Positions 10,155 to 21,466 of a stretch of DNA of 42,401 bases are shown piece after piece. The notes under the pieces were generated by a model that saw nothing but the letters and a program-made list of their open reading frames with translations, was not told the DNA's origin and made no database searches. Each line of letters starts with the position of its first letter. Position 1 is the first letter of the stretch. Origin of the DNA: Cyanothece sp. BG0011 (lineage in GTDB: Bacteria > Cyanobacteriota > Cyanobacteriia > Cyanobacteriales > Microcystaceae). The position numbers and the translations under genes were made by a program. The DNA lies in the NCBI RefSeq assembly GCF_003013815.1, contig NZ_PRLH01000148.1, forward strand, positions 1-42,401, read 5' to 3'.

Positions 10155-10751
10155 TCAACGTCTAGCAGCACAGTTATTTAAAGCTTGTAACACTTTATCG
10201 GGATGTTTTTCCATTAAAAAGGCCTCCCCTTCATAGGGTAAATCTTGGGGGTCATACAAATTTAACGTTTCCCAATCTGCTGACCCTAAACTGGCTAAAA
10301 TAGAGCGAAAGGTAGAGGAATCAGCATTCATAATCGGCACAACGACTCCATTATCTAACCCGGCAGCACAATCTTGTACAACGTGCCAACTTTCATGGGC
10401 TAACGTTTCAATATAAAGGTTAAAATCCTGTCGATTATTTTGACACATGGTCATTCGATTATAATCAGGCTGATAATATCCTAATAAACCGGCTTCACAA
10501 GTTTCGTAACTAATAGAAATTCCTACATTTTTTAAAGCGGTGAAAAACTTCTGCTCATAAAAATTATAACGGTTGGAATCATCCCCAGATAAATCAACAC
10601 AACCACCATTAGTAGTGATCATATAATTACCATAATCACAATTATTAAAATTACGGGAACTACTACGGGAATAATCTTGAGCAGTCGCTGAACCTGCCAT
10701 AATTACACTAGCAGAAACAAAAGTGGTCAACAGGGTAAGAGTGATTTTCAT
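10155..10751 (-). CDS. Secreted HExxH metallopeptidase-like protein
   Basis: A 198-aa protein from the ATG at 10751. The N-terminus MKITLTLLTTFVSASVIMAG then SATAQD is a typical signal peptide cleaved after TAQ or ATA. A longer frame back to 10838 exists but would bury this signal, so I reject it. Residues 119-123 are HESWH, a zincin-type HExxH motif, within LAHESWHVVQDC, and eight cysteines suggest disulfides outside the cytoplasm. Further zinc ligands cannot be assigned by eye. It is divergent from the aspartic protease gene and the two share a CRP-like palindrome. The metallopeptidase label is an inference from one motif and the export signal. Confidence 0.6.
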   Translation of the reverse strand: MKITLTLLTTFVSASVIMAGSATAQDYSRSSSRNFNNCDYGNYMITTNGGCVDLSGDDSNRYNFYEQKFFTALKNVGISISYETCEAGLLGYYQPDYNRMTMCQNNRQDFNLYIETLAHESWHVVQDCAAGLDNGVVVPIMNADSSTFRSILASLGSADWETLNLYDPQDLPYEGEAFLMEKHPDKVLQALNNCAARR

Positions 10752-10846
10752 TGGTTGATAAGGTCTAAAATAAAATTTATTATCAAGTATTCCCAAATCG
10801 CTGTTAAAAATTCTCCTTAAAAGCATGATTTTGATCACTGGTTAAA

Positions 10847-10862: not shown

Positions 10863-10957
10863 GTCAAGCAATCATTATAAGATAACGTATTGTGTAAATT
10901 ATCATTATGGTTTTGGGCATATTAAACCATAAACCCCTCTAGCAGTTATTGATTATT

Positions 10958-11503
10958 ATGGCTATTAAACAAATTCTGAGTACCAGTATTGTCGTCACAG
11001 GGATGGTATTTGCTTCCTCTTTTGTGCCAACTCAAGCACAACAATCTTGTTTTTTGCAAGGGGCTAATGGGCAAAATATTGATCTCGGTCATCTTTGTGG
11101 GGGTGGCGGTTCTTCTAAACCTTCTGTATCCCCTCAAACTGGCGTATTTACGGTTCCTATCAAACGCAGACATTCTGGTATTCCTGTAGTAGATGTCACG
11201 TTTAATGGGCAACATACCTTTGAAATGTTGTTTGATACTGGGGCTAGTGGCATTACTATTAGCACGGATATGGCTGACGCGATGGGTTTAAAACCTCAAG
11301 CCGGCGCGTTTTCCCAAACCGCAGGGGGTGTGGTTCCTATTGGTTTAAGTACAGTATCTTCAGTTAAAGCAGGGGAACTCAGTTCGTCTAATCTACAGGT
11401 AGCTATTAACCCATCGTTACCCATTGGACTCTTGGGACAAAACTTTTATGGTCATTACGACGTAGTTATTAAAGAAACGACTATCGAACTACGCACCCGA
11501 TAA
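10958..11503 (+). CDS. Exported retropepsin-like aspartic protease
   Basis: A 181-aa protein from the ATG at 10958; an in-frame TTG nine bases earlier is less likely. A signal peptide is visible (IKQILSTSIVVTGMVFASSF, with cleavage near TQAQQ). A short Gly/Ser linker leads to a single-lobe aspartic protease domain: FTVPIKR, then FEMLFDTGASGITIS with catalytic D93 in DTGAS, and a final strand IGLLGQNFYGHYDVVI. This matches the bacterial clan AA group that works as a dimer. Its stop is 12 bp before the MoxR start, so it likely begins the protease-MoxR-LRV-VWA cluster. A CRP-type palindrome lies upstream. Confidence 0.85.
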   Translation: MAIKQILSTSIVVTGMVFASSFVPTQAQQSCFLQGANGQNIDLGHLCGGGGSSKPSVSPQTGVFTVPIKRRHSGIPVVDVTFNGQHTFEMLFDTGASGITISTDMADAMGLKPQAGAFSQTAGGVVPIGLSTVSSVKAGELSSSNLQVAINPSLPIGLLGQNFYGHYDVVIKETTIELRTR

Positions 11504-11515
11504 GGCAACCGTAAA

Positions 11516-12541
11516 ATGACCCCTACAGCCCTAAAAACCTATCTAGAAAGCCTTGTTACCCATAATCTTTACATTAGTACCATGATTTGGGGTGCGCCGG
11601 GTATTGGCAAGTCTAGCATTGTCTCTCAAGTTGCCCAGAATAATCAACTAGAGTTTATTGACCTACGCTTAAGTCAACTGGCCCCCACAGACTTAAGGGG
11701 TTTACCAGTTGCTATTGCCGAAACCAATAACTCCCCTCAAGGGTTATCAACTTGGTATCCCCCGGAGTTTCTCCCCAGAGAAGGGAAAGGTATTCTTTTC
11801 TTAGATGAACTTAATATGGCTCCTCCAGCTATGCAAGGGGTAGCGCAACAATTAATCTTAGATAGACAAGTGGGGGCGTATCAAGTGCCGGAGGGTTGGT
11901 TTATTTGGGCTGCAGGGAACCGTAAAGAGGACCGGGCTTCTGTGTTTGCCATGCCGTCTCCGTTAGCAAATCGTTTTTTGCATCTCAATGTAGCGGTCGA
12001 TTTTGAGAGTTTTAAAGCCTATGCCTTATTAAATGACTTTCATGAACAAATTATTGCCTTTTTGTCCTATCGAACCCCTTTATTACACCATCTTGACCCT
12101 CAAAACGCTGCTTGGCCGTCTCCTCGTTCTTGGGAAATGGCCAGTTCTCTCCATCAGGTTAACTTAGATATTGCGCCGGCGGTAGGAGAAGCAGCAACAG
12201 CAGAGTTTAATGCGTTTGTTAGTTTATACAAAAATTTACCAGATCTTAGTGAAATTTTAGCCGGAAATGGTCAACATATTGCTTTTTCTTCTGAACCTTC
12301 GGTGCGTTATGCCACGACTATTGGGTTAACGGTGAGAGCAAAAGATGTTAATGAAGCTTACAATGGGTTTCGCTGGTTAACCGATAAAGCCACTGCTGAA
12401 TGGGTACAACTCTATGCAACTGATTTATTTCGGCAACTACGGGTAAAAGGACAGTTAGGAAAATTAGCCCAACTGGTGCAAAAAGATAGTAAATTAAAGC
12501 AATTTTTCAAAGATTATCAAGAGTTAATGGGACTATTATAA
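11516..12541 (+). CDS. MoxR-family AAA+ ATPase
   Basis: A 341-aa AAA+ protein. Walker A GAPGIGKS is at residues 26-33 and Walker B ILFLDELN at 93-100 (D97, E98). The LRLSQLAPTDLRGLP segment before Walker B and sensor-1-like IWAAGNRKED fit MoxR/AAA_5 ATPases. MoxR ATPases act as chaperone-like remodelers and are normally encoded beside VWA-domain proteins. Here the VWA partner is at 14229-15422 and a solenoid repeat protein sits between them. It starts 12 bp after the aspartic protease stop. A hairpin follows its stop. The target is unknown. Confidence 0.88.
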   Translation: MTPTALKTYLESLVTHNLYISTMIWGAPGIGKSSIVSQVAQNNQLEFIDLRLSQLAPTDLRGLPVAIAETNNSPQGLSTWYPPEFLPREGKGILFLDELNMAPPAMQGVAQQLILDRQVGAYQVPEGWFIWAAGNRKEDRASVFAMPSPLANRFLHLNVAVDFESFKAYALLNDFHEQIIAFLSYRTPLLHHLDPQNAAWPSPRSWEMASSLHQVNLDIAPAVGEAATAEFNAFVSLYKNLPDLSEILAGNGQHIAFSSEPSVRYATTIGLTVRAKDVNEAYNGFRWLTDKATAEWVQLYATDLFRQLRVKGQLGKLAQLVQKDSKLKQFFKDYQELMGLL

Positions 12542-12556
12542 TTCTCCAATTTGTAG

Positions 12557-12577
12557 GGGCTTAATAATATTAAGCCC
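12557..12577 (+). terminator. Hairpin after the MoxR gene
   Basis: GGGCTTAAT and ATTAAGCCC form a perfect 9-bp stem with a 3-nt loop. It is followed by TTGAATTAATC, a weak T tract. It could attenuate transcription between the MoxR and LRV genes or stabilise the upstream message. Confidence 0.45.
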
Positions 12578-12609
12578 TTGAATTAATCATTATCAAGATT
12601 GATTTAATT

Positions 12610-13992
12610 ATGAATGAAAATTTTTCTGTTTTAAAACAAGAAGCAATTAATGAAAACACTTCGCCGAAAAGATTAGCAGAATTAGCAAATATTCCAGAAT
12701 TAGCTCATTTAGTTGCTCAAAATATTAATACTTCCCCAGAAACTTTAAATAAATTAGCAGAACATAATAATGAGAATATTCTCAAGGCTGTTGTTAGCAA
12801 TCCAAATACACCAACAGAAATTTTAATAGAATTGGGTAGTAAATTTCCTCAAGAACTAGCCAATAATCCTATTATTGATTTTTGGTTATTAGAAGATAAT
12901 AATCCTTTATTTGATCACAACAACTTCACAGTATTATTAGCTGAAAATCCCAATACTCCTATTAAACTATTAACAATATTAGCTGAAGCTTCAGATTATT
13001 GGATTCGTTCAGCAGTAGCTCTTAATTCTAATACACCTGTTAATGTATTAGAAAAACTAACTAATAGTCCTCGTAAAAATGTCTGCCATGCTGTAGCTTC
13101 TAATAAAAATACACCTATTAATTTATTAGAAAAACTAGCTAATAGTCCCGATGAAAATGTCCGTCGTCCTGTAGCTTCTCATGAAAATACACCTGCTAAT
13201 CTATTAGAAAAACTAGCTACTGATCCCGATAAGAATGTTCGTCATGCTGTAGCTTCTAATAAAAATACACCTGCTAATCTATTAGAAAAACTAGCTACTG
13301 ATCCCTACAGCTATGTTAATTGTGGTGTAGCTTCTAATAAGAATATACCTGCTAATCTATTAGAAAAACTAGCTACTGATCCCGATGAGAATGTTCGTCA
13401 TGCTGTAGGTACTAATGAAAATACACCTGTTAGTTTATTAGAAAAACTAGCTGATAGTCTCGATGAGTATGTTTGTCATGCTGTAGCTACTAATAAAAAT
13501 ACACCTGCTAGTGTATTAGAAAAACTAGCTAATAATCCCGATAATAATGTTCGTCATGCTGTAGCTGCTAATAAAAATACACCTGCTAGTGTATTAGAAA
13601 AACTAGCTACTGATCCTGATAAGTATGTTCGTAATTATGTTGCGACTCACGAAAATACACCTCTTAAAGTCTTAGAAAAATTAGCCTTTGATCCTTATAA
13701 GTATATTCGTTACGATATAGCTTGTCTTGAAAAGACACCTGTTAAAATTCTAGAAAAATTAGCTAATGATCAAGATAATAGTATTCGTCAAAGGATCGCT
13801 GATCACCAAAATACGCCTATTAGTATTTTAGAAAAATTAGCAACTGATTCCGATAAGAATGTTCGCTATTCAGTTGCTTATAACAAGAATACACCCGTTA
13901 AAATTTTAGAAAAATTAGTTAACGATCTTGACGAATCAGTATCTATAACTGCTCAAAAAAATCTAGAATCTTATAGAGATAAGATTACATAA
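12610..13992 (+). CDS. Leucine-rich-repeat-variant (LRV) solenoid protein
   Basis: A 460-aa protein built almost entirely of 26-residue repeats with consensus NTPxxLLEKLAxDPDxxV then RxAVAxNK. There are 13 clear copies from residue 115 to 452 and about three degenerate copies before that (NTSPKRLAELAN, then TSPETLNKLAEH, then TPTEILIEL). This matches the LRV/HEAT-like family, whose repeats form a right-handed helical solenoid; the first described example came from an Azotobacter nitrogen-fixation region. It has no signal peptide, membrane segment or catalytic motif, so a binding or adaptor role is likely. It lies between the MoxR ATPase and the metallopeptidase/VWA gene on the same strand, 68 bp after the first. 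Its DNA is AT-rich. Confidence 0.85.
   Translation: MNENFSVLKQEAINENTSPKRLAELANIPELAHLVAQNINTSPETLNKLAEHNNENILKAVVSNPNTPTEILIELGSKFPQELANNPIIDFWLLEDNNPLFDHNNFTVLLAENPNTPIKLLTILAEASDYWIRSAVALNSNTPVNVLEKLTNSPRKNVCHAVASNKNTPINLLEKLANSPDENVRRPVASHENTPANLLEKLATDPDKNVRHAVASNKNTPANLLEKLATDPYSYVNCGVASNKNIPANLLEKLATDPDENVRHAVGTNENTPVSLLEKLADSLDEYVCHAVATNKNTPASVLEKLANNPDNNVRHAVAANKNTPASVLEKLATDPDKYVRNYVATHENTPLKVLEKLAFDPYKYIRYDIACLEKTPVKILEKLANDQDNSIRQRIADHQNTPISILEKLATDSDKNVRYSVAYNKNTPVKILEKLVNDLDESVSITAQKNLESYRDKIT
12952..13965 (+). repeat. In-frame 78-bp tandem repeats encoding LRV units
   Basis: Thirteen in-frame units of 78 bp. Units 4, 5 and 6 (starting at about 13186, 13264 and 13342) share nearly identical DNA through the CTGCTAATCTATTAGAAAAA core and the following CTAGCTACTGATCCC. 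This indicates recent unit duplication rather than ancient divergence. Flanking units differ more. Confidence 0.8.
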
Positions 13993-14032
13993 AAAAGTCT
14001 AAAAATATATAAAAGTGTATCATAAAATACTA

Positions 14033-14157
14033 ACACCAGTTCTCAGAAATAACTAGAAAGATTGCTTCGGGGTATTTTTAGTAAAAGTCAAAGCTTACTG
14101 TTTATCTTACCCCTCGCAATGACGACTTAAGTTCCTAATAAGTTTTGAGAATTGATA
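14033..14157. repeat. Inverted-repeat intergenic element (about 125 bp)
   Basis: Outer imperfect arms CAGTTCTCAGAA and TTTTGAGAATTG enclose an inner stem ATTGCTTCGGGGTA (14061-14074) / TACCCCTCGCAAT (14108-14120). The inner motif, with its GCTTCGG and CTCGCAATGAC ends, resembles a dispersed intergenic repeat of unicellular cyanobacteria. It fills most of the 236-bp gap between the LRV and VWA genes and may separate their transcripts. Confidence 0.5.
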
Positions 14158-14228
14158 TAATTGTGTAATCTGTAAGTAAATCTTAACCTAAAAATTAATA
14201 ATAAATTGCTTATTTAAACTTTACTAAA

Positions 14229-15422
14229 ATGACTGAAAACTTTGAAAAAATCATTAGTGCATCTCGTCTTAGAGTTCGCATGAAATCACCTTTCTTTGCT
14301 ACTTTGTCACTCTTTGCTAATTATAGACCTTCTTATTGTATTGCTACTGCTGCAACCGATGGCAAAGATATCTATTTTAACCCTGATTTTCTATTATCTT
14401 TACCCAAAGCACAACAAGACGGATTACTATTACACGAATTACTTCATGCTGCTTTACTACATAATATGAGAAAAGGACATAGAGAAGCTAATCTATGGAA
14501 TATTGCTGCTGATATTGTTGTTAATGAGTTGATTGTTGAACAAGGGTTATTTGAATTACCAGAAGAAAGCATTCGTAAACCTGAATGGGAAAAAATGAGC
14601 GTTGAAGAAATCTATGATTTATTACTTAAAAATTCTTATGATTGCAAATTACCTAACCCTGATTTATTATCCCAACCTCCTGAAGACTGTCAAGGTGATG
14701 GTTCAAGTCATTCTAAAGATTCTGGACAAGAAAATAATAATACAAAAAGTAATCAATTGGATAGTTTAAATCAAGCACAAAAAGAACAATTAAAGTCACA
14801 CTGGAATAATGCTATGCAACAAGCAACTTTAATTCAAAGAACAAAAAATCAAGGAATATTACCAGCAGGAATTGAAAGACAATTACAAGAAATCTCTCAA
14901 TCGCAAATTGATTGGCGTAGTTATTTATGGAGATATTTAGTACAAACTCCTACTGATTTTCAAGGTTACGATCGCCGTTTTATTAGTCGAGGTTTATATT
15001 TAGATACGGTAGCAGGGGAATCGGTTCAAGTCTTTGTTTGTGTTGATACCAGTGGTTCTATTGGTGATCAAGAATTACACTTATTTTTAAGTGAAGTTGT
15101 AGGAATTTTAGGGTCATATCCTCATGTTAAATGTGAATTATATTATGCTGATGCAGATGTTTATGGACCTTTTTCTCTTACTTTAAATCAAACCATTCCT
15201 AAACCTCAAGGGGGTGGAGGAACCTCTTTTATTCCCTTCTTTGAAAAAGTAGAAAAAGATCGCGATCCTAACCTAGAAGGTGTTTGTGTTTATTTAACCG
15301 ATGGTTATGGAACATTTCCTAATAGTAAACCTGAGTTACCGACGCTTTGGGTAATTACTCCAGGAGGACTAAACTTAAATGAAATTCCTTTTGGTGAAGC
15401 AGTTAAACTCTATGTTAATTAA
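14229..15422 (+). CDS. DUF2201 protein: HExxH metallopeptidase domain + VWA-like domain
   Basis: A 397-aa protein. The N-terminal half carries HELLHAALLH (H69, E70, H73), a zincin motif of the DUF2201 putative metallopeptidase domain, with IAADIVVNE just after it. A polar low-complexity linker of about 40 residues (S149-Q188, many N, S, D and Q) follows. The C-terminal half is VWA-like: VFVCVDTSGSIGD, with the metal-ion adhesion motif D273-x-S-G-S, then a second acidic strand and a TDG turn (VYLTDGYG). VWA partners of MoxR ATPases bind the client while MoxR supplies energy. Here the matching MoxR is two genes upstream. No signal peptide, so cytoplasmic. Confidence 0.85.
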   Translation: MTENFEKIISASRLRVRMKSPFFATLSLFANYRPSYCIATAATDGKDIYFNPDFLLSLPKAQQDGLLLHELLHAALLHNMRKGHREANLWNIAADIVVNELIVEQGLFELPEESIRKPEWEKMSVEEIYDLLLKNSYDCKLPNPDLLSQPPEDCQGDGSSHSKDSGQENNNTKSNQLDSLNQAQKEQLKSHWNNAMQQATLIQRTKNQGILPAGIERQLQEISQSQIDWRSYLWRYLVQTPTDFQGYDRRFISRGLYLDTVAGESVQVFVCVDTSGSIGDQELHLFLSEVVGILGSYPHVKCELYYADADVYGPFSLTLNQTIPKPQGGGGTSFIPFFEKVEKDRDPNLEGVCVYLTDGYGTFPNSKPELPTLWVITPGGLNLNEIPFGEAVKLYVN

Positions 15423-19981: not shown

Positions 19982-21466
19982 TTACTCTATTTTGGAATAA
20001 ATATCATCCATAATTTCATCAAGAGGATTTTGTTGACGATTTTTGTCTTTTACTTTACTCTTTTTTAGAAAATAAACTAAATGAAATTTTGTAGTAAATA
20101 ATGAAGATATTATGTCTTGAAGTTTTAGGGGATACTTAATCATTTTTTGAGAAAATCGGTGATATTTTTTCTTATTTAGTATAGGAACTTTAGTGGCAAA
20201 GAAATCAAAACAAGCATAATAATCTGTCCATTCATATTTTTCGATTACTTGTTTAACTATCTTATTAACAAAATTATAATAAATAATTCCTTGTGTTCCT
20301 ATAGTATTTCCCAAGGAATAATATTTGATTTTTTTAGAAGATTCAATATGAGCGAGTAAATCTGTTGCTAAGAAACTACCAAAACTGTGACTTATAATTA
20401 TGATATCTTGATAATTATTTGAATTTAAGAAGATAGAATCTATTTGTCTCAGAAGATTTAGTCTTATTTTTACTCTTAATAGTTCTTTTCTACAATAATT
20501 ATTGACAAATAGATAAAATTCTAATACCTTATTAATTTCTTTTGATTTTGCTACTCCAACAATCCACAAAAATATAAATATAATGAGTAAACTATTTTTT
20601 ATATTATCAGAAGACATTGAAGGTATTGAACAGATTATTGGTTGAGTTGCTGAACATATTTGTAGCTTAACTGATTCTGGTAGTAAATGTCCATAAAAAT
20701 CAGGAAAAATAAAATTCAATAAATTTAATAAAATATTTAAAAACTTGATAAGTAATTCATTGAAAATCAATTTCAATAAATCAGTTACTTTAAAATAATC
20801 AGCTAGTAATACACAAAAATTATAAAAATAGTTAACAAATTCAAAAAATAATTTTAAACAATAAAATATGATTTCTTTTATGTTTGAATCATTGGAAAGT
20901 GGAATAACAGGAATAGTTATTTTTTCAAAAAACTCATAAAGAATAGAAAAAATAACAAACAAATTAATCGTCAATATATATAAAGAAAAGATGGGAAGAA
21001 AAATAAAATAAATAAGAGAAGAAGGAGTGGTAAAAGCAGAACATATATACACTCGATAATCTAACTGTATTTGAACTTTATCAAAGCTATCACTAAAAGA
21101 CGAAAAGAAGTTACAAAAATAGTTAAAAATTAATTTAAGAAAGTTCAAAATTGAATTAAATATATTACATAACAAATTCCATAAAAGAGTAAAAGTCAAA
21201 TAGGCTTGATAAAATGGATTAATAGATGTCTGACTATGACCAATATAGGATGACCAATCTATTTCATAAATATGAATAGATTTATTTTCTTGACAAGAAT
21301 GAGCAGTAATTGAGTTATGCTCGCATATCTCATTCTTTTGTTTTCTTTGTTGCCAAAGTTCAAGTTGATTCCAAATACCACAACTTAAAGATGATGTGCG
21401 AAAACCAGGAAATAACATCAAACCAGGAACTAAAACAATAGCTATTTTCTTCTTATTAGCTGACAT
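19982..21466 (-). CDS. Membrane-embedded lipase-like alpha/beta hydrolase
   Basis: A 494-aa protein of unusual build. The N-terminus IAIVLVPGLMLFPGF resembles the first strand and oxyanion loop of alpha/beta hydrolases. Residues about 100-300 are several hydrophobic, Phe/Leu/Ile-rich segments that look membrane-spanning (for example LLNLLNFIFPDF). A hydrolase-like segment returns near residue 355 with IIIISHSFGSFLATDLLAH, an S-x-S-x-G nucleophile elbow (S361) in place of the usual G-x-S-x-G, and a late FHLVYF may supply the histidine. So the catalytic fold seems to be split by a membrane insertion. It is very AT-rich compared with neighbours, which may reflect transfer. Function is not recognised beyond this. 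Confidence 0.55.
   Translation of the reverse strand: MSANKKKIAIVLVPGLMLFPGFRTSSLSCGIWNQLELWQQRKQKNEICEHNSITAHSCQENKSIHIYEIDWSSYIGHSQTSINPFYQAYLTFTLLWNLLCNIFNSILNFLKLIFNYFCNFFSSFSDSFDKVQIQLDYRVYICSAFTTPSSLIYFIFLPIFSLYILTINLFVIFSILYEFFEKITIPVIPLSNDSNIKEIIFYCLKLFFEFVNYFYNFCVLLADYFKVTDLLKLIFNELLIKFLNILLNLLNFIFPDFYGHLLPESVKLQICSATQPIICSIPSMSSDNIKNSLLIIFIFLWIVGVAKSKEINKVLEFYLFVNNYCRKELLRVKIRLNLLRQIDSIFLNSNNYQDIIIISHSFGSFLATDLLAHIESSKKIKYYSLGNTIGTQGIIYYNFVNKIVKQVIEKYEWTDYYACFDFFATKVPILNKKKYHRFSQKMIKYPLKLQDIISSLFTTKFHLVYFLKKSKVKDKNRQQNPLDEIMDDIYSKIE

Follow-up and report, generated by a model that had tools for sequence, protein, structure and literature searches.

Does the row of four same-strand genes in Cyanothece sp. 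BG0011 contig NZ_PRLH01000148.1 encode one system, and what might that system do? The stretch analyzed here, positions 1 to 42,401 of the contig, is referred to as the window. All four open reading frames (ORFs) were found on the plus strand at the positions given in a preliminary description of this DNA: a clan AA aspartic protease (10949 with a TTG start, or 10958 with an ATG start, to 11503), a MoxR-like AAA+ ATPase (11516-12541), an LRV α-solenoid protein of 460 aa (12610-13992) and a DUF2201 protein (14229-15422) with an N-terminal putative metallopeptidase domain and a C-terminal VWA domain. We find that MoxR, LRV and DUF2201 form a conserved three-gene module in cyanobacteria and that the protease is most likely an unrelated neighbor. 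Our best explanation of the whole, which we hold tentatively and with rather less than even confidence, is a MoxR-DUF2201 machine served by swappable LRV recognition subunits.

The linkage of the three genes is seen directly in the relatives. Of 47 distinct cyanobacterial loci of the near DUF2201 type, 40 have an LRV ORF, or the constant N-terminal module of an LRV protein (N-module), within 5 kb of the MoxR-DUF2201 pair. The 47 include two groups, L072-L075 with L096 and L066 with L069, whose members are at least 97% alike in DUF2201. At 34 of these 40 linked loci an LRV is found within 1.2 kb, at 35 an LRV is on the same strand, and one (L059) is an N-module fragment. The 47 comprise the loci from named genomes, from a class sample and from the sister genome G010, minus the duplicates L086 and L107 and the non-cyanobacterial L082-L084; they are a separate total from the 47 loci obtained by scanning the named genomes with a DUF2201 alignment. 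MoxR is present in the same locus as DUF2201 at 38 of the 47, several of the others being contig ends, and Pfam recognized LRV in all 10 LRV ORFs scanned from other loci. Beyond cyanobacteria, an LRV-repeat ORF (Pfam 43.6 bits) overlaps the start of MoxR-DUF2201 on the Thermus oshimai plasmid pTHEOS01. Within the available stretch, no LRV was found at nine distant non-cyanobacterial loci (L088-L095, L097), at four cyanobacterial loci of a distant DUF2201 type (L109-L111, L113) or at the three nearer non-cyanobacterial loci L082-L084.

The arrangement of the module differs among lineages. The LRV gene lies between the core genes in Crocosphaera, upstream in Mastigocoleus and in genome G100, downstream on the opposite strand in Nostoc, and on both sides in Calothrix and Aphanothece. 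On a quick DUF2201 tree, with 20 of 43 inner branches left unresolved, long branches that join one another and labels influenced by contig ends, the LRV-position label changes at least 18 times and LRV presence 6 times. Since the places of the LRV vary on this tree, the linkage outlasts rearrangement. The window genome is probably a Crocosphaera species, in a genus group with C. watsonii WH 8501 (G017), where three LRVs stand between the core genes, and with Crocosphaera sp. MO_202.B2 (G011), where there are three in that place (two short) and one after. In G100 (L099), seven LRV ORFs with gaps of 7-15 bp are followed by MoxR after 31 bp and by DUF2201 with a 4-bp overlap, and operon unity of the module is apparent in this relative rather than in the window.

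Could such linkage arise by coincidence or hitch-hiking, with LRVs and MoxR-DUF2201 merely gathering in the same variable regions? Both parts are patchy, the module occurring in 6 of 50 family genomes. Among 291 Cyanobacteriia genomes (LRV_2 at E ≤ 1e-4, DUF2201 at E ≤ 1e-8, the same sample being assumed for both searches), 22 have LRV_2 and 17 have DUF2201; the two coincide in 12 genomes where 1.3 would be expected (Fisher p = 5.5e-12). This and the other p-values given here are too small, since related genomes are not independent. Expressed differently, LRV_2 was present in 12 of the 17 DUF2201 genomes versus 10 of the 274 others. The 13 near-type DUF2201 genomes include ten with an adjoining LRV and two (G070, G131) with an N-module-bearing LRV elsewhere; none was found in G252. 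Control searches at these thresholds returned one match in 142.7 kb of other DNA, the start of the window's own LRV within L020, and none in 10,099 shuffled ORFs. The lack of further matches in this control DNA, the recurrence of linkage in many places of the tree and in Thermus, the nine-gene run of G100 with gaps of 7-31 bp, and the tracking of DUF2201 by the N-module described below make mere coincidence very unlikely.

The protease does not share this linkage. The preliminary description had presented a four-gene system led by an exported aspartic protease and had named the absence of that gene beside MoxR-DUF2201 in related genomes as grounds against it; this absence is what we observe, so that the expected conservation held for MoxR, LRV and DUF2201 and not for the protease. 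Protease relatives (PF13650, 71.1 bits in the window) occur in 32 of 49 family genomes, most of them without MoxR, which was found in 5 of 49. The four other genomes that matched MoxR (G008, G009, G011, G017) each have the protease on a separate contig. The C. watsonii protease instead pairs divergently with a homologue of the window gene at 10155-10838 (L026). The protease evolves slowly, like a housekeeping gene, with a ratio of nonsynonymous to synonymous substitution rates (dN/dS) of 0.10-0.14. It is also likely exported, and no export signal was noticed in the other three proteins. What speaks for its membership is the 12-bp gap to MoxR on the same strand, correctly given in the preliminary description and common to the window and the sister genome G010 only. 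In G010, the protease and the 12-bp gap are followed by about the first 59 bp of MoxR and then an internal piece of DUF2201 (L021 2056-2319), and a C-terminal DUF2201 part opens another contig (L014 56-709). The shared junction and the wreck behind it indicate that the module landed behind the protease before the two genomes split and then decayed in G010. On the contig placement, the C. watsonii pairing and the slow evolution, we reject the protease as a component and consider a four-gene system extremely improbable.

The divergent gene beside the protease, at 10155-10838 on the minus strand, is putatively metallopeptidase-like (weak PF20573 and PF09768 matches), and its pairing with 10949-11503 (+) is kept in C. 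watsonii.

What kind of machine do the two core genes encode? MoxR is a divergent member of its family, with PF07726 at 24.5 bits (cut-off 27) in one search and 26.6 bits, or 27.6 including in-frame neighbors, in another; midasin is its only PDB relative at E ≤ 1e-5. The P-loop (about 11591-11614, +) is present in 33 of 34 aligned homologues and the Walker B pattern (about 11798-11809, +) in 24 of 34, with K32 and E98 invariant in the alignment. By these sequence features, the protein is probably a MoxR-clade AAA+ ATPase with an intact P-loop, acting as the motor. The DUF2201 protein matches PF13203 (124.9 bits) and PF09967 (64.2 bits). The intact HExxH motif previously noted in it is part of HELLHAALLH (HExxHxxxxH, 14433-14462, +) in the putative metallopeptidase domain, and the pattern HE.LH....H is found in 46 of 46 aligned homologues. 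Similarly, the DxSGS motif of the metal ion-dependent adhesion site (MIDAS) in the VWA domain (DTSGS, 15045-15059, +) is present in 46 of 46, D358 of the same site (15300-15302, +) is invariant and T332 nearly so. No PDB relative of DUF2201 was found at E ≤ 0.1; its structure model (predicted local distance difference test score, pLDDT, 78.7) matched VWA and integrin I domains in Foldseek. A gene for a MIDAS-bearing VWA protein, as judged by PF09967, DxSGS and the VWA fold, therefore adjoins MoxR. Together, the two proteins may form a MoxR-VWA-type remodeling machine that is driven by ATP and includes a putative metallopeptidase of its own.

The third protein has a constant and a variable part. 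It matches PF01816 with 205.6 bits (gathering score 21.6) and, in its N-terminal region, LRV_2 with 63.4 bits. A constant N-module is followed by thirteen repeats (12952-13965, +) of the 26-residue length reported earlier; a 78-bp tandem array of 11.4 copies spans 13030-13922 within the gene. The shared N-module is matched by 91 of 93 LRV ORFs, using a model built from 56 of the 93 to which plain repeats can also match weakly. Its core has the consensus NPNTPtdvLlkLgaeFPqelleNPvfsLLLLENPnl, represented in the window by VSNPNTP...FPQELANNP...LLEDNNP (12793-12906, +). A Glu of this core is present in 87 of 89 rows, 94 distinct rows having been kept from 713 hidden Markov model matches (rows with at least 25 gaps, mostly single repeats, were dropped) and 89 of them having a residue at the Glu column. 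In the window it is Glu95 (12892-12894, +).

The N-module follows DUF2201 across genomes. A core model trained on the named loci only scored above 45 bits in 11 of 12 DUF2201-positive versus 2 of 12 DUF2201-negative LRV genomes (p = 6e-4), with the limit set after the scores of the class-sample search and with G136 (44.1) and G160 (39.9) just under it. In the class sample, 12 genomes had a core of at least 55 bits, 11 of them among the 13 near-type DUF2201 genomes (p = 3.5e-17); here the model had already included many of those genomes and the limit was set with the scores known, G136 and G160 joining at 45 bits. Among LRV ORFs outside the linked loci, the motif was found in 0 of 15 with at least three repeats from nine DUF2201-negative genomes, a filter that hid two DUF2201-negative genomes carrying the motif, and in 4 of 8 from DUF2201-positive genomes or from G009, which has a MoxR fragment. 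The genomes of L082, L083 and L084 have N-module matches on other contigs (51.4, 50.7 and 42.7 bits, with Glu, Glu and Ala at the Glu position).

Several further LRV sets were observed. Hyella patelloides (L062, G334) has a large dispersed repertoire of 16 LRV N-module matches over 15 contigs, away from its MoxR/DUF2201 locus. Giant LRV frames of 35 and 46 repeats, with Gln in place of the N-module Glu, are found in two genomes of one genus (L100 9136-12756, minus strand; L102 7262-11956, plus strand). MoxR-DUF2201 and N-module LRVs are also present in a metagenome bin titled Klebsiella pneumoniae (L083, L140), a title that is probably wrong for these contigs. In G198 (L103 2825-9603), three LRVs of another type, with a different N-terminus and no LLLE core, immediately follow the genes for an AAA+ ATPase and a DUF1257 protein, so that LRVs also occur beside a different AAA+ machine.

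The body of the window LRV is modeled by AlphaFold2 as a confident two-helix solenoid (mean pLDDT 94.0). A structure search placed it in the HEAT/armadillo type, with matches to the PP2A scaffold and importin-alpha, and the only solved LRV relative found by sequence, with the same kind of repeat solenoid, is the Azotobacter LRV protein (PDB 1lrv, E 7.6e-7). The latter is an Fe-S cluster protein; the window N-module has no Cys, and an Fe-S LRV of the 1lrv type was rejected. The most variable repeat positions are 14, 16, 17, 20, 21, 24 and 26, five of which (16, 17, 20, 21 and 24) are on the second helix (16-24). With a dN/dS of 0.36-0.77 over 28 pairs, compared with 0.10-0.20 for MoxR and 0.14-0.29 for DUF2201, the LRV pairs evolve faster than the core genes. 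At the seven variable positions, chosen on the Crocosphaera set, the ratio of nonsynonymous to synonymous differences (pN/pS) between repeats was 1.38 (1.25-1.56) in that set and 1.17, 1.13, 1.16, 1.41 and 1.73 in five others, the intervals of Aphanothece and G160 including 1. Positive selection on the repeats is not claimed, as the ratio is not clearly above 1 in two of the sets, the measure is confounded and the same result is obtained in DUF2201-negative genomes.

The array of G100 illustrates how such bodies turn over. Between LRV3 and LRV6 there are 3 differences in 828 bases. LRV2 and LRV5 are mosaic, their last 100 bases being 98% and their first 270 bases 82% alike, and so are LRV5 and LRV7, in the opposite sense (first 270 bases 93%, last 100 bases 72%). 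In 20 of the 21 LRV pairs, similarity is higher over the first 90 residues than in the middle.

How might the constant and variable parts work together? The VWA metal sites of Rea1, CbbO and NorD bind an acidic residue of a partner or client, according to the excerpted texts of PMC4660213, PMC9976466 and PMC6624252. By analogy, since the N-module Glu is nearly invariant and the module tracks DUF2201, this residue may dock at the DUF2201 MIDAS. We propose that LRV proteins would be interchangeable recognition subunits of MoxR-DUF2201: the constant N-module would dock on the machine, most simply by its Glu completing the MIDAS, and the variable helix face of the diverged solenoid would bind a target protein. 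Target binding could then let MoxR pull on the LRV-target complex, exposing the target, or the LRV itself, to DUF2201, and LRV gene duplication and recombination would renew the recognition set. The fast-evolving solenoid as an adaptor, already put forward in the preliminary description, is the best reading of the evidence.

The same analogy can be read in another way. In Rea1, CbbQO and NorQD, it is the client that supplies the VWA domain with the acidic residue (as excerpted from the same three sources), and Kaur et al. propose peptidase cleavage of a component of a VMAP system (as told in the excerpted text of PMC10907252). The LRVs could thus be clients that MoxR-DUF2201 folds, assembles, activates or cuts, acting themselves as sensors or effectors, with the N-module as a client tag. 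However, the LRV proteins scanned showed no effector domain, and many diverged LRV copies per machine with variation on one helix face fit recognition parts better. The multiplied, diverged bodies therefore favor adaptors, and we regard the client role as rather unlikely.

The next question is what would be recognized. On plasmid pSYSA of Synechocystis PCC 6803, MoxR (SGL_RS00750) and DUF2201 (SGL_RS00745) overlap, and an LRV protein, SGL_RS00715 (638 aa, annotated as hypothetical, Pfam LRV 212 bits, N-module core 61.7 bits), is encoded 4.2 kb from the pair on the opposite strand. The neighbors of this trio are toxin-antitoxin genes, a GmrSD-type protein, cas1d, cas2 and cas4. According to the abstract of PMC9978351, pSYSA is specialized in defense; the words "MoxR", "VWA" and "leucine" are absent from the main text of that paper. 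At L058 11381-13430 (minus strand), DUF2201 and the LRV downstream of it are separated by a DpnII-type restriction endonuclease and a D12-class methyltransferase, which have homologues in L067, L068 and L071. The defense-island setting and the patchy distribution suggest that the module may be used against phages, plasmids or other invaders. A known anti-phage defense system was rejected, the PADLOC matches being only weak (the protease to PDC-M08B at E 1.7e-5, MoxR and LRV at E 0.013-0.021, DUF2201 none), and phage records gave one weak LRV match.

Ordinary protein maintenance is a different possibility, comparable to that of Rubisco by CbbQO, with the LRVs steering the machine to the cell's own complexes. 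The closest MoxR-VWA relatives of known function are maintenance factors in the excerpted sources, and LRV arrays adjoin the core machine, not only in defense islands. Such a role fits less well with the presence of the module in few family genomes, its relic in the sister genome G010, its variable copy number and the defense neighbors on pSYSA and in L058, and we consider it fairly doubtful. The most far-reaching form of the recognition model is that one MoxR-DUF2201 ATPase-metallopeptidase is programmed by a recombining LRV bank to recognize and destroy its targets, as a modular constant/variable immune repertoire in cyanobacteria including pSYSA; we see this as possible, though improbable.

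Several observations weigh against LRV proteins as docked recognition subunits of a defensive MoxR-DUF2201 peptidase. Seven of the 47 loci (L062, L079, L080, L081, L112, L114 and L117) have no nearby LRV, no N-module match was found anywhere in G252 or in the genomes of L079, L080 and L081, and MoxR-DUF2201 pairs without LRV occur outside this DUF2201 subgroup. G044 and G055 have the N-module, with no DUF2201 found; the G044 core is letter-identical to that of pSYSA, so G044 may, from this identity, be a plasmid relative that lost the MoxR-DUF2201 pair. The Glu is missing from the linked LRVs of G160 and replaced by Ala in the L084 genome. In the structural model it sits at the end of helix 88-94, where confidence falls to about 72, and it could equally be structural. 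As for the variable face, the repeat pN/pS is confounded by concerted evolution and AT-rich codon use, and the Cwat1/MO1 orthologues show no excess change at the variable positions (8 of 63 versus 18 of 171). Repeat pN also exceeds pS in LRVs of the DUF2201-negative genomes G107 and G198, which makes the variability a general LRV trait. Finally, a zincin fold is not among the 50 Foldseek matches listed for the DUF2201 model, and no PADLOC model names the system.

By architecture, the module is of the MoxR-vWA ternary kind, as the preliminary description had supposed in expecting a linked third partner. The ternary conflict systems of Kaur et al. 2020 (PMC7159879, as excerpted) are of four types, VMAP, iSTAND, FtsH and beta-propeller. 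They likewise combine a MoxR AAA+ protein, a vWA protein and a third linked component, are common in cyanobacteria, have diversifying parts and have a proposed conflict role. They differ in that the third component here is an LRV solenoid with a constant N-module, and the vWA part is taken here by DUF2201, which has a putative metallopeptidase domain of its own; the main text of that paper contains none of the terms "LRV", "DUF2201" and "solenoid". In the third gene, Pfam and NCBIfam show only LRV/HEAT-type repeats (in a scan without a VMAP model). The window trio showed no domain of a trypsin- or caspase-like peptidase, a cyclase or a TIR effector (the neighbors at other loci were clustered, and few of them scanned). 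On its architecture, we do not class the module with the VMAP systems, and none of the four types includes an LRV.

Other known systems share single features. Those diversified by diversity-generating retroelements (PMC10907252, as excerpted) also have diversified putative sensors linked to MoxR, in multicellular bacteria that include cyanobacteria, but there a reverse transcriptase diversifies C-lectin domains, whereas the diversity described here arises as repeat genes duplicate and recombine; no reverse transcriptase was noticed in the clusters of neighboring ORFs, in which no search was aimed at one. CbbQ-CbbO, NorQ-NorD and Rea1/midasin similarly combine an AAA+ ring and a VWA/MIDAS protein, the latter gripping an acidic partner residue. 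They have no dedicated, multiplied solenoid partner, and no HExxH domain is reported in the VWA protein in the excerpted texts (PMC4660213, PMC9976466, PMC6624252). We found no description of the MoxR-LRV-DUF2201 association among the open-license papers listed by full-text searches, and no function of DUF2201 or LRV proteins in this context in the literature searched. The locus name sll7029 is mentioned in PMC3516471.

If our explanation is correct, swappable solenoid proteins would form a bank from which a protease-like AAA+ machine of bacteria draws its specificity, and DUF2201 and LRV proteins would each gain a first role. We did not find such a recognition strategy described for MoxR-VWA systems. 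As the trio is present in the genetically tractable Synechocystis PCC 6803, this idea can be tested directly by removing the genes, and the proposed docking depends on a single named residue class, the Glu.

The remaining features of the window are minor. The hairpin and the repeat element that had been described as interrupting the cluster both exist; a functional separation of the genes by them is not apparent, as relatives that lack them keep the three genes linked. The hairpin, with perfect 10-bp arms, is located between MoxR and LRV (12557-12577). The LRV-DUF2201 spacer (13995-14228) has 14 further partial matches in the genome, at 77-91% identity and spanning about 14022-14164, which is a dispersed repeat element; an exact 15-mer inside it occurs once. 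A promoter/terminator scan gave 26 promoters versus 19.3 expected and 4 terminators versus 2.4 expected, a result that was not used; it placed no strong plus-strand terminator between the three genes. Elsewhere in the window, the part 20000-21466 of a long minus-strand ORF (19982-21466) has no Pfam family at E ≤ 0.001. Further genes common to the loci were sought and rejected, the ORF clusters being mainly antisense artefacts or lineage synteny, with pentapeptide and WD40 proteins recurring in some loci and not generally. One of these, a pentapeptide-repeat and WD40 protein, is encoded near the module at L057 487-2865 (minus strand), with cluster members in L054-L056, L069, L080 and L112.

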